Shown: positions 4,191 through 57,379 of the stretch, piece after piece
How positions within the stretch are numbered: position 1 is the stretch's first letter
Layout: each line of letters begins with the position of its first letter
Assembly: GCF_030409055.1 (NCBI RefSeq)
Contig: NZ_CP116619.1
Location: 2,556,628 to 2,620,627, forward strand
Source: Trichocoleus desertorum NBK24
GTDB lineage: Bacteria > Cyanobacteriota > Cyanobacteriia > FACHB-46
Direction of reading: 5' to 3'
DNA: 64,000 nt
Notes under the pieces: generated by a model
What the model was told of the DNA's origin: nothing
What the model saw: only the letters and a program-made list of their open reading frames with translations
Databases searched by the model: none
Position numbers and translations under genes: made by a program

Positions 4191-5114
4191 TTAGGCAACT
4201 GCTCCTAGAAGACTGGCTAGCAAAGCTTTCTGAGCGTGAAGACGGTTTTCGGCTTGATCCCAAATCTTGGACTGTTCCCCTTCCATCACCGCATCCGTAA
4301 TTTCTTCTCCCCGGTGAGCAGGGAGACAATGCAAAACGATCGCCTTGGGGTCTGCCAAACTCAGCAGGGGTTCATTCACTTGATAAGGTTGAAAAATGGG
4401 AATTCTAGCCGCCGCATCGGATTCCTGCCCCATACTGGCCCAGACATCTGTGTAAAGAACTTGAGTTCCTTTGACGGCTGCTTCTGGATCAAGGGTGATT
4501 AGGACTTCTGAACGATTATTTGCGAGCGCTTTTGCTTGCTCCACAATCGCTGGTAACGGCTGGTATTCCGGCGGTGTGGCTATGCGCACATTCATTCCGA
4601 CCAACGCACAACCTAATAGGAGGGAATGAGCCACATTGTTGCCATCTCCTAGGTAGGTCAACGTTAGGCCCGCTAGAGAACCGAACGTCTCCTGCACCGT
4701 TAACAGATCCGCCAGAATTTGACAGGGATGCTCTAGATCGCTCAAGGCATTGATGACAGGAATCTGAGCATGATGGGCAAATGTTTCGAGATCTTGCTGC
4801 TCAAACGTGCGGATCGCCATAATGTCGAGGTAGCGATCGAGAACACGGGCTGTATCTTCCAGCGGCTCCCCACGGCCTACCTGAGTCACGTTTGGGTTGA
4901 GGTCTAGGACTTGCCCTCCGAGTTGATACATTGCCACAGAAAAGCTCACCCGCGTCCGAGTCGAAGCTTTATAAAATAGCAACCCTAAAACTTTGGGGCA
5001 ATGGGGTGCCACTTTACCCAACTTCATCTGGCCTGCCAAATGCAGCAGCTCCTGCACCTCGTCTGGGTTCAGATCTGCCAAACTCAGAAGATCCCGTCCT
5101 TTCATTGCCTCCAT
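4191..5114 (-). CDS. argF: Ornithine carbamoyltransferase
   Basis: This enzyme makes citrulline from ornithine and carbamoyl phosphate in arginine biosynthesis. The diagnostic motifs are intact: the carbamoyl-phosphate loop STRTR, HPCQ, the ornithine-side DVWASMGQ and HCLPAHRGEE near the C-terminus. Three in-frame ATGs compete at 5126, 5114 and 5105. I chose 5114 because a GAGG sits about six bases upstream of it, giving 307 residues, normal for the family. It is followed on the same strand by lexA. Confidence 0.95.
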   Translation of the reverse strand: MEAMKGRDLLSLADLNPDEVQELLHLAGQMKLGKVAPHCPKVLGLLFYKASTRTRVSFSVAMYQLGGQVLDLNPNVTQVGRGEPLEDTARVLDRYLDIMAIRTFEQQDLETFAHHAQIPVINALSDLEHPCQILADLLTVQETFGSLAGLTLTYLGDGNNVAHSLLLGCALVGMNVRIATPPEYQPLPAIVEQAKALANNRSEVLITLDPEAAVKGTQVLYTDVWASMGQESDAAARIPIFQPYQVNEPLLSLADPKAIVLHCLPAHRGEEITDAVMEGEQSKIWDQAENRLHAQKALLASLLGAVA

Positions 5115-45454: not shown

Positions 45455-45778
45455 TTAAAGATACTTTTCTAAAGTGTTAGCTAGAGTGGTCTTCGGTACA
45501 GCACCCACTACCATATCAACTCGCTGTCCTCCCTTAAAAATCATCAGCGTTGGGATGCTGCGGATGCCGTATTGGCTAGCAACGCTAGGATTCTCGTCAG
45601 TATTAACTTTGACGACCTTGATTTGGCCATCGTACTGTTGGGCGATCTCGTCAACAACAGGTGCAACCATCCGACAGGGACCGCACCAGGGAGCCCAAAA
45701 ATCAACTAAAACTGGAACTTCACTATCAAGCACTTCTTGCTTAAAACTAGAATCCGTCACTTGTGCGGCTGCTGACAT
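45455..45778 (-). CDS. trxA: Thioredoxin
   Basis: The 107-residue m-type thioredoxin has active site W31-C-G-P-C35 in [14 protein letters not shown], the cis-Pro in SIPTLMIF and the conserved buried Asp in VLVDFWA. It reduces target disulfides, fed in cyanobacteria by ferredoxin- or NADPH-thioredoxin reductase. It follows guaB3 and the Yfr1 RNA gene on the same strand, an order conserved in many cyanobacteria. Confidence 0.97.
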
Positions 45779-45904: not shown

Positions 45905-45981
45905 AAAATTAGGAACCGCCCGAACGATAGTCCAGGCGGAGTGTGGTGTGAGGAGTGAACGGAAACATGCGTCTCCGCTAC
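45905..45981 (-). ncRNA. yfr1: Yfr1 small RNA
   Basis: On the minus strand between guaB3 and trxA lies the strictly conserved Yfr1 core ACTCCTCACAC (45956-45946), in a stretch with no pairing partner. It is flanked by a 5' hairpin (about 45979-45958, AGCGGAGA with TTTCCGTT) and a 3' terminator hairpin (CCGCC with GGCGG, 45939-45916) followed by TTCCTAATTTT. A -10 box TACAAT at 45992-45987 places the start near 45981, giving about 77 bases. Yfr1 is known to act by pairing its core with mRNAs such as those of outer-membrane proteins. The gene order guaB-yfr1-trxA matches other cyanobacteria. Confidence 0.92.
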
Positions 45982-45986
45982 TTTCT

Positions 45987-45992
45987 ATTGTA
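45987..45992 (-). promoter_or_regulatory. -10 box of yfr1
   Basis: TACAAT on the minus strand lies about six bases upstream of the inferred start of the Yfr1 transcript. A -35 element is not clear. Confidence 0.65.
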
Positions 45993-46067
45993 AGCGACAG
46001 CTTTAGTTTTTCCAGGGTTCCTGGGTAGAGACCGGAAAAGTTTTAAGGATTTATTTGGGAAGTTAAT

Positions 46068-47231
46068 TTACTTACCCATTCCAAGCTGTTGCGCCTTTTG
46101 ATAAACCTTGCCTTCAGTTAACAAGGAAGGGGCAATGACGACTTCAACTTGCTGCATTTCCTTGATATTTTTAGCGCCTAAGGTACCCATACTGGTTTGC
46201 AAAGCGCCTAGGAAGTTGTGAGTGCCATCGTCAAGTTGGGCAGGGCCACGGAGAATTTGCTCTAGCGTGCCTGTAGTACCCACCCGAATCCGAGTGCCGC
46301 GTGGCAGAACGGGGCTAGGAGTCGCCATCCCCCAATGGAAACCTCGACCCGGTGCTTCGGCTGAACGAGCAAAGGGAGAACCGATCATGACGCCATCGGC
46401 TCCGCAAGCAATACACTTACAGATATCGCCACCTGTGACGAGTCCACCATCTGCGATGACGGGGACATAGTTGCCCGTTTCTTGATAGTAGTCGTCCCGT
46501 GCTGCGGCACAGTCGGCGATCGCGGTAACTTGAGGCACACCCACGCCAAGCACCCCGCGAGACGTACAAGCAGCGCCTGGGCCAATGCCAACTAGCACGC
46601 CTGCTGCCCCTGCCTTCATCAGGTTGAGGGCTACTTCATAGGTGACACAGTTGCCCAGAATCACTGGCATGGGCATTTCTTGGCAGAACTGAGCCAGATC
46701 CAGGGGCACAATTGACTCTGGAGACAGGTGGGCGGTAGAAACAACCGTTGCTTGAATAAAGAACAGATCAGCGCCTGCTTTAGCCACGATGTCACCAAAC
46801 TTGACCGCTCCGGCGGGAGTCGCACTGACCGCAGCGATACCACCTTGGCTCTTAATTTCCTGAATTCGCTGCTCGATCAGCTCTGGTTTGATCGGCTCTG
46901 CGTAAAGCTCTTGCATCAAAGGAACAAACTCAGTAGGTCCTACCGACGCGATTCTATCCAGAATGGGGTTGGGGTCAGCGTAGCGGGTTTGAATGCCCTC
47001 TAGGTTTAATACACCCAACGCTCCCAACTGAGATAGGAGCACAGCCATTTTGACATCCACTACTCCATCCATTGCACTCGCAATGATTGGAATTTGCCGT
47101 TCGATGCCACCAATCTTCCAGCTTGTATCGGCCAAGCTCGGATCAAGCGTCCGCTGACCGGGAACCAACGCAATTTCGTCGAATCCGTATGCTCTACGAG
47201 CTGTTTTGCCCCGCCCAAGTTGAATTTCCAC
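46068..47231 (-). CDS. guaB3: GuaB3-family IMP dehydrogenase-like protein
   Basis: The 387-residue TIM-barrel protein is related to IMP dehydrogenase. It keeps the catalytic loop Cys in GPGAACTSRGVLG, the ADGGLVTGGDICKC phosphate-binding segment and the flap region GTRIRVGTTGTLEQI. It lacks the CBS module of full-length GuaB and is shorter, as in the GuaB3/MJ0653-like group. It probably oxidises IMP to XMP in GMP synthesis; a paralogue elsewhere cannot be excluded. It is upstream of yfr1 and trxA on the same strand. Confidence 0.92.
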   Translation of the reverse strand: MEIQLGRGKTARRAYGFDEIALVPGQRTLDPSLADTSWKIGGIERQIPIIASAMDGVVDVKMAVLLSQLGALGVLNLEGIQTRYADPNPILDRIASVGPTEFVPLMQELYAEPIKPELIEQRIQEIKSQGGIAAVSATPAGAVKFGDIVAKAGADLFFIQATVVSTAHLSPESIVPLDLAQFCQEMPMPVILGNCVTYEVALNLMKAGAAGVLVGIGPGAACTSRGVLGVGVPQVTAIADCAAARDDYYQETGNYVPVIADGGLVTGGDICKCIACGADGVMIGSPFARSAEAPGRGFHWGMATPSPVLPRGTRIRVGTTGTLEQILRGPAQLDDGTHNFLGALQTSMGTLGAKNIKEMQQVEVVIAPSLLTEGKVYQKAQQLGMGK

Positions 47232-53870: not shown

Positions 53871-54842
53871 ATGAATTTTCTGCGCCAGCTTCGGAGTCTT
53901 GACAACCAACTGAAAGCGCTCTTGGCAACTGTGGTGATTAGTGTGGTGTGGCTGGTTTATGCGGTCACAACAATTCAACCCGGTGATGCGGAAATCCTGG
54001 CGAATCAACCCCAACCGATCGCGATCGCCTCAGTTCCGCCCAGTCAAATGCGGCCATCTGAGAACCGAGCTAGTGCTTCACCGCCAGCTACCTCACCGTC
54101 AGCCACCTCACGGCCAGCTTCAGTCACAGTGCCCACGGTTCCTCTAGAGCCACCCGCTACTCGACCCATCCAATCCCCAACACAATCCCAGCAATCTCCT
54201 CAGCCACCTCAGCCACCAACTAATTCGCCCGCTGTGCCCACTTACCAACCGAGGGAACTTGTCGCTTTCGCAGACCCCACAAACTACGGGGAGCGAGTGG
54301 TCAGGGATACCTATGGTCACCCAGTGGCTCAGGCACCCATTATTGTGCTACACGAAACGGTCAGTTCTGCCAACAGCACTATCTCATTTTTTCAGACTCC
54401 TCATCCTAGAGATGAAGACCAAGCTAGCTACCATGCTCTGATTACGCAAGATGGCACCATTGTTTACCTTGTGCCTCCCGATAAGCGAGCCTTTGGAGCT
54501 GGCAACTCCGTGTTTAATGGCCTCAATGGCCCGGAGGCGGTGAAAACTCATCCTAAATTTCCACCTTCTGTCAACAATTTTGCCTACCATATCTCTTTAG
54601 AAACCCCACCCGATGGCCGTAACAATGCCAATCGTCACAGCGGCTACACAGCAGCCCAGTACCAATCGCTGAGCTGGTTGGTTGCGAGAGCAGCGGTGCC
54701 CGAATCGAGAATTACTACTCACCAAGCGGTCGATCGCTCTGGATCTCGGAAAGATCCTCGCAGCTTTAATCAGCAAACATTCCTGACGCTGCTACGCTCT
54801 TATACTCGACCTGCTCAGACGGCTCCTACACCGCGTGGCTAA
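53871..54842 (+). CDS. N-acetylmuramoyl-L-alanine amidase, membrane-anchored
   Basis: The 323-residue protein has an N-terminal membrane anchor (about 16-34), a long Pro/Ser/Thr-rich linker (40-125) and an Amidase_2/PGRP catalytic domain. Zinc-ligand His are visible in IIVLHETVSS and ITTHQAVDRSGSRKDP, and the substrate-groove segment QASYHALITQDGTIVYLVP is present. It should cleave the MurNAc-L-Ala bond in peptidoglycan from the periplasmic side. The linker encodes a low-complexity PPATSPSATSRPAS stretch. It is convergent with the porin locus. Confidence 0.92.
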   Translation: MNFLRQLRSLDNQLKALLATVVISVVWLVYAVTTIQPGDAEILANQPQPIAIASVPPSQMRPSENRASASPPATSPSATSRPASVTVPTVPLEPPATRPIQSPTQSQQSPQPPQPPTNSPAVPTYQPRELVAFADPTNYGERVVRDTYGHPVAQAPIIVLHETVSSANSTISFFQTPHPRDEDQASYHALITQDGTIVYLVPPDKRAFGAGNSVFNGLNGPEAVKTHPKFPPSVNNFAYHISLETPPDGRNNANRHSGYTAAQYQSLSWLVARAAVPESRITTHQAVDRSGSRKDPRSFNQQTFLTLLRSYTRPAQTAPTPRG

Positions 54843-54883: not shown

Positions 54884-56660
54884 TTAAAACTGAAACACGG
54901 TTCTAACCACGCCCACAAAGACATCATCATTTTCTGCATTGTGATTCGGTGCTGTGAGCCAGATGATTCCTGGCGTGACGGTAACGTTGTCATTGAAGCG
55001 GTATTTATAGAAAGTCTCCAAATGGAGAGAAGTGTCTCGGTCGGGTTGCCCACCATTGAGATTATTGCTAATTGCGGTGACTTTGGGTTCCATACCGACT
55101 AATATGCCGCCCAAGTTTCCTTCCTTACCCAAGTCGGGAAAGGCGATCGTCACGGCCCAGTTCCACACATCCGATTTGCCAGTACCGATGTAGCGTTGGT
55201 TAGAGTATCCGACCCAGCCGCCTAAAGCAAAATTGCGACTCAGGGTGAAGGTACTAGAAATGCCATAGGAATCGACGCTGACGGGTCTGCCGAAGGTACT
55301 GTTGGCTAGGTTGCTCCCTGTGGAGGTGCCAAAGGCAGGGCTAAAACCGGGCGTGTAGCTGTTGACATAGGTAAAGCCGATGCGGGCGCGATCGCTAGGG
55401 CTAACAATCAATTGAGCCAACGCGCCATACTGCCCATCAAACAAACCATTTTTCTCAACTGGATCGGCGGCATTTGGTACCAGGTAGCCCAGGTTGAGTT
55501 CCAGATTGTCGTTAAAGAGATGCCGCAGCCCGAAGCCAGCGCCACCGGAGTAGTTATAAATTGGGTTGCGGAGAGCGAATAACGAGACCGCACCGCCATC
55601 AAAGTATGGATTGAGTTGCGAAGATGCGTCTATATCTACAAAGCCATTACCCGTGCCTGCCAGGTAAACATTGGTTCTAGGCCCCACCGGAAAGCGATAG
55701 CGCAGCAAACCCAGAATAAAAGAGTTGTTGCTGTCCCCATCAAACTCCACTCTGCCTTCATTGGTGAGCAAGGGGCCACTGCCTTCATTCAAAATTAAGC
55801 CAGTTCCTCTCGTACCCGGAGTTGTCCCTCCTAAAGGCTCGATATTGTTGGCCTGTAGGCGAGTGGTTAATAAATCCTGGCCTGTGAAACTGGTATCCAA
55901 ATTAAGGCGAACTCTGGTGCCCAAAGTAGGGATCTGCTCAGCAGGTTGACCATCAGCGCGATCGCCCCCTAACACACTCACCAGACCCACCAACGCTTCC
56001 CCATGCAACTTGGTGGTAGTCGAGAACTGGTTGGCCTCTAGTTCCGCTGTGCGAACTTCTAGCGTATCGACTCGCCCCCGCAAAACACTCAGCTCTGCTG
56101 CGAACTCTTCCTGCAATCTTTAGTAAGATCGCCAAATCTTCTTTACGAACTAGATCAGTGGTTCCAGCAGAAATTAACTCTTGAATTCGATCTAGCGCTG
56201 CATTCACACCCGCCGCAAATTCATACCGAGTCAGCGATCGATTGCCTCGAAAGGTGCCATCTGGATAGCCCGCAATTACACCATACCTTTCAACCAGCGA
56301 TTGCAATGCCTGAAAAGCCCAGTCTGTCGGTTGCACATCGGATAACTGCGAAACTGAAGTCACTTGAGCGAGCGGTTGATCTTCATTAACCGTGATTGCT
56401 AGTACTTCTGTAGGTAGGCTCTCTGCGGTTGGGGTGGGCAAATTCGAGGTGTCTAAGGGTGGAGTAGCTGACTTTAAGGGTTTTGAGGTTGAAACTTCAG
56501 CAACAACCAGGCTTGGATGGGCAGAACTCCCGATCGCACTCGTTAGCGCTAAATTTTTTGCAACTAGGTTTTCCCCAGCCAACGTCATAGATGAATCAAT
56601 AAGATAGAACCCTAAAACCGCTGAATTGATTAATAAAGAATAGCCAAAAAACCGTCTCAT
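54884..56660 (-). pseudogene. SLH/OprB iron-uptake-type porin, frameshifted
   Basis: The gene encodes a signal sequence, an SLH domain (DVQPTDWAFQALQSLVERYGVIAGYPDGTFRG), a short coiled coil and an OprB-type beta-barrel ending in Phe (RTVFQF), as expected for an outer-membrane porin. The SLH half stays in one frame to KEDLAILLKIAG. The barrel half continues from QEEFAAELSVLRGRVDTLE in another frame. One extra base near 56117-56121 explains the break. Both halves are otherwise intact, so this is either a recent mutation or a sequencing error. The start is the ATG at 56660, with GAGG seven bases upstream. Such porins import iron and other solutes. Confidence 0.88.
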
Positions 56661-57379
56661 ATAGCCCTCATCAGAAGTCAAACAACCACTAATGCGAAAA
56701 AGTGAATTTTAATAAGCAAAAAATTAAAACTACACAGTAGAAAAATTAATCAGCCTAATCTTAGTAATTCAAAAACCTGCACAGAAACTACTGCTAAGTT
56801 GCAAAACACTTAACAGCTAAATTAGGCTAAAACGAATTCAAGCTAATATTGCAAATACAGCTAATGCAGCCGTTTGGTCTCAGTACAGCTAAACCTATTT
56901 CAAATAAAATCCCAGGTGCAATTCCTGATTCAAAAAGCTTTGGACGTGATTATCTTGCAGGAGCAACTTGATAAAGCTGTCGAATTCATCAAGCCAATTA
57001 ACCGAATTATATCCAGATTTATATTTTCAGATAAATGAAATCATTCATTTTATACACAAGTAGAGAAATTGTATTTGTTCGTAAAGATTGAGGTCGTTCT
57101 ACAAAAATTTAGTCTTATAAACTTCTAGTTTTTATCTCTAAAGGTGTATTTACAATTAAAACTAGAACTAAAGATCACATTAGTTTATTAAGCAAAGTTT
57201 GGAAAGTATCCTATCGAGATAAAAACCTCTTAGCGTAGACTCTAGGGTGAAGAAGCAATAGCTTCCTATCAACAATGCTGCTGGCAGACGGGGCGGTGAC
57301 GTCTCACAAATCACCCTCGATGGAAAGTTACTCTCACCCTTTGGATAGTAATTGAGTCAGCAACGGCAAAGGTAGCCTA
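56661..57379. other. AT-rich intergenic region upstream of porin
   Basis: These 719 bases are notably AT-rich compared with their surroundings. CAGCTAA-like words recur between about 56810 and 56895. The porin promoter and a long leader are expected here. I find no clear Fur box, no ORF and no recognised RNA. Confidence 0.55.

Follow-up and report, generated by a model that had tools for sequence, protein, structure and literature searches.

The minus-strand feature described here is, with high confidence, the single yfr1 gene of Trichocoleus desertorum NBK24, an orthologue of the phylum-wide small RNA Yfr1, and the cell-envelope function of that RNA is included in this reading. The Rfam covariance model for Yfr1 (RF01116) was run on the window (the whole stretch of DNA analysed, 64,000 nt) and gave a complete match, spanning model positions 1–59 of 59, at 45914–45978 on the minus strand (58.6 bits against a gathering cut-off of 38; E = 5e-9 for the window). 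When the whole genome was scanned this locus was the only place above the cut-off; a second match to the model (3649241–3649280, 20.4 bits) has no core and was taken as noise. The gene is kept in both congeners (59.4 and 58.0 bits). The original prediction had placed a Yfr1 gene on the minus strand at 45905–45992, and this is borne out, with the core lying inside that range. Its extent of about 77 bases needs a minor adjustment, as the Rfam-defined RNA is 65 nt long (45978–45914) and a transcript of about 65–78 nt would be expected, depending on the 3′ end. Yfr1 is found in nearly all cyanobacteria, with a published length range of 54–69 nt (PMC2190773). The presence of a conserved regulatory RNA at the locus also agrees with the earlier claim that annotation confined to proteins would overlook it. 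Taken together, the full-length RF01116 match, the core, the hairpins, the −10 box and the gene order identify an orthologue of a known small RNA and no new kind: this is an ordinary, standard copy in its usual place.

In the minimum free energy (MFE) structure the RNA folds into two hairpins, with stems of 9 bp (5′) and 10 bp (3′) when G–U pairs are counted. The 5′ stem-loop (45958–45979, minus strand) is found in both the MFE and the centroid structure, and the GC-rich, terminator-type 3′ hairpin occupies 45916–45939 (minus strand). Between them lies an unpaired linker of 18 nt (45957–45940) which contains the invariant core ACUCCUCACAC (45946–45956, minus strand; read as ACTCCTCACAC from 45956 to 45946). 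The energy of the MFE structure is −28.6 kcal/mol compared with a mean of −15.4 for shuffled sequences (z = −5.3), and none of 200 dinucleotide shuffles folded as well. The 3′ stem is followed directly by UU, then CCUAAUUUU. A terminator scan of the yfr1 locus made no call at the 3′ hairpin, because what follows it is UUCCUAAUUUU and no clean U run. As the TTCCT in this tail is common to most relatives, the interrupted U tail is a trait of the lineage and not damage. The claim that the core sits between two hairpins stands, the second of them being of terminator type.

Comparison with relatives supports the 3′ hairpin. A search by family and order yielded only three genomes, and named relatives were gathered via GuaB3 instead. 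Among 35 distinct sequences, 97.3% of stem cells are paired as against 32–53% in slid controls, and 18 cells are changed on both sides compared with a shuffle mean of 5.0. Most of these compensatory changes fall in the 3′ stem, where they affect 4 of the 10 pairs. The 5′ stem has 97% of its cells paired with little covariation, and says little on this point because it is too conserved. The flanks of the core within the linker are also largely invariant among relatives.

The promoter scan places a −10 box, TACAAT, at 45992–45987 (minus strand), about seven bases ahead of the predicted transcription start (about 45980–45978), together with a weak −35-like sequence, TGGAAA, at 46014–46009 (minus strand) with a spacing of 16 to the −10 box. 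Of 75 sequences (the relatives and our own), 53 have TACAAT as the hexamer and the remainder have a variant of it, and in 58 of the 75 it begins exactly 35 nt ahead of the core, a near-fixed distance which upholds the earlier claim that the box is in register. The upstream neighbour is guaB3 (46068–47231; GuaB3 family IMP dehydrogenase-related protein, TIGR01304, 560.5 bits) and the downstream neighbour is the thioredoxin gene trxA (45455–45778; TIGR01068, 140.3 bits, and PF00085), both on the minus strand like yfr1 itself. The order guaB–yfr1–trxA is, as had been predicted, the known arrangement (PMC2190773), and of 80 guaB3 loci in named cyanobacteria, 72 have the exact core downstream of that gene, most with a thioredoxin gene next. 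Fischerella thermalis PCC 7521 has another exact copy of the core motif, about 135 nt upstream of the one in yfr1 and on the other strand (about 4215–4225, minus strand), inside a low-complexity G-rich stretch.

This position on the same strand between guaB3 and trxA could also mean that there is no independent gene, the structure belonging instead to the guaB3 mRNA as its 3′ end, or to trxA as its leader, and acting in cis, and the weak U tract might allow some read-through into trxA. We consider this very unlikely, as the RNA has its own −10 box with a spacing conserved in relatives, and as in some other cyanobacteria yfr1 adjoins other genes and Yfr1 is a discrete abundant RNA (PMC2190773).

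In other species, where expression of Yfr1 has been demonstrated, it pairs through its core with ribosome-binding regions, and the targets it represses include porins, murC and mraY (PMC6974561, PMC6778093). Plain duplex energies with a 22-nt linker were used to look for such targets here, target opening being charged only in separate runs, and the background comprised 694 gene starts, taken from the window together with 40 sampled 20-kb stretches; up to five candidate starts were scored per gene and the best one was kept. The linker pairs at the starts of murC, mraY and murE with energies of −26.2, −25.9 and −26.3 kcal/mol and at four OprB porin starts with −26.5, −23.4, −22.3 and −21.6 kcal/mol; at each of these starts, only 0–2 of the 694 background starts do as well, although it should be noted that for the porins, mraY and murC the best energy was picked from a longer series of candidate starts, which gives these genes some advantage. 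The sites chosen for the porins, mraY and murC are each immediately upstream of a plausible start codon. One porin locus, masked by N, was left out of the scoring. When a single procedure was applied to 30 loci of each gene, −15 kcal/mol or better was reached at 29 mraY and 13 murE loci and at none of the recA control loci. No guaB3 start (0/75) or trxA start (0/64) reached −13 kcal/mol when a single chosen start was scored, and 9% of background genes reach that value. As the core complements Shine–Dalgarno-like sequence generally, strong ribosome-binding sites account for some of the pairing signal. Nevertheless the complementarity is well above background, and from it we infer that porins, murC and mraY are predicted targets of Yfr1 in this genome.

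The porin gene in the window itself behaves differently from the four above. It encodes an iron-uptake/OprB-type porin (NF033921, PF04966) with its start codon at 56660, and had been put forward as a possible target whose leader would pair with the core. That pairing, at −8.2 kcal/mol, is weak and close to the median of the background (−7.6), and as 312 of the 694 background starts pair at least as well this gene was rejected as a candidate. The idea of porins as targets therefore survives by complementarity for four other OprB porins of the genome and fails for the one in the window. The reading frame of this gene is broken into two overlapping frames (55953–56681 and 54884–56116) with a frameshift near 56120, and the genome search also shows a stop inside the match, so that 54884–56681 (minus strand) is either a pseudogene or the product of a sequencing error. 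The adjoining gene (53871–54842) looks like a cell-wall amidase; its orthologues occur in both congeners, and the contigs bearing them yielded no OprB match.

A further candidate is murE. A perfect complement of the 11-nt core lies at its ribosome-binding site (genome 4165086–4165096, plus strand), seven bases ahead of the start codon. The genome holds four exact core complements including that at the yfr1 locus; a simple estimate from base frequencies predicts 2.6, so that their number is about chance level; with up to one mismatch the counts are 63/65 compared with 48/60 in a reversed control. Of the three exact complements outside the yfr1 locus, one is the murE site; the other two, one inside an EF-Tu-like coding sequence in antisense orientation and one inside a GTGTGAGGA-type repeat, were dismissed. 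Short tandem repeats of the heptamer GTGAGGA, which resemble the core complement, are found at 331398–331422, 1021838–1021855 and 1193188–1193219. The murE site is matched at 10 of 11 positions in the congeners (ATGTGAGGAGT). In a class-wide sample (n = 57), with murE starts placed by match coordinates, identity to the complement is at least 9/11 in 19% and at least 8/11 in 33%. A site of at least 8/11 with −13 kcal/mol or better is present in 9 of the 29 families of this sample and absent from many other families. Shared ancestry among the genomes inflates their count. With target opening charged, murE gives about −14 kcal/mol, near but not beyond the 1% background quantile of −14.2. murE is not named as a Yfr1 target in the texts of the Yfr1 papers searched, the matches listed from the main Nostoc paper belonging to ‘murein’. 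We would give even chances to murE being a direct and widely conserved target of Yfr1, as its complementarity suggests. If so, murE would be a simple extension of the known set of cell-wall targets, and murC, murE and mraY would come under one small RNA.

Two candidate partner RNAs of the Cyano-1 motif, which is the motif of the Yfr2 family (PMC8400943), were found at genome positions 272366–272441 (minus strand; 48.7 bits, above cut-off) and 4541943–4542010 (plus strand; 38.3 bits, just below cut-off). Both carry the core complement UGUGUGAGGAG near their 5′ end, and their cofolds with Yfr1 have energies of −72.5 and −75.6 compared with −53.8 and −55.2 as separate molecules. Yfr2 binds Yfr1 in other species (PMC6974561, PMC6778093). 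In the mechanism that we propose, the gene's own sigma-70-type promoter would give an RNA of roughly 65–78 nt in which the two hairpins keep the 18-nt linker open. The CU-rich core would then base-pair with GUGUGAGGAGU-like ribosome-binding sites in cell-envelope mRNAs (OprB porins, murC, mraY and probably murE) and so lower their translation, and the two Cyano-1/Yfr2 RNAs, with the core complement aboard, could sequester Yfr1. By homology and complementarity, Yfr1 probably tunes cell-envelope gene expression here by covering ribosome-binding sites. A genome with a complete predicted Yfr1 circuit (Yfr1, two Yfr2-type RNAs and envelope targets) offers a reference point.

The core motif is also carried by RNAs of the Yfr10/Syr5 type, which differ from Yfr1 in structure and locus and which we set apart by their description in PMC6778093. 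That the RNA is a Yfr10-like one with only the core in common is nonetheless extremely improbable, given the full-length match to the Yfr1 model, the Yfr1 synteny and the conserved promoter; nor was a different, better-scoring Yfr1 found in the genome. That it is a pseudogene or degenerate copy without function here is hardly credible: no point in favour was found, whereas the core is invariant, the stems and the −10 box are intact, and the predicted targets in this genome carry complementary sites.

With the locus thus read as a Yfr1 orthologue, its relation to known families is straightforward. Cyano-1/Yfr2 (RF01701) is the partner RNA carrying the complement and binds Yfr1 but does not resemble it. 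Yfr1 (RF01116) shares with the RNA described here its sequence, two-hairpin layout, invariant core and guaB–yfr1–trxA order. The linker of 18 nt and the 5′ stem of 9 bp are within the published Yfr1 ranges (16–20 nt and 6–10 bp), whereas the 3′ stem of 10 bp is one pair beyond the published 6–9 bp. The loop of the 3′ hairpin is slightly longer than in the Rfam consensus, and the U tract, which in Yfr1 forms the tail of a Rho-independent terminator, is interrupted; both these features are common to relatives. The differences from Yfr1 are nothing of substance.
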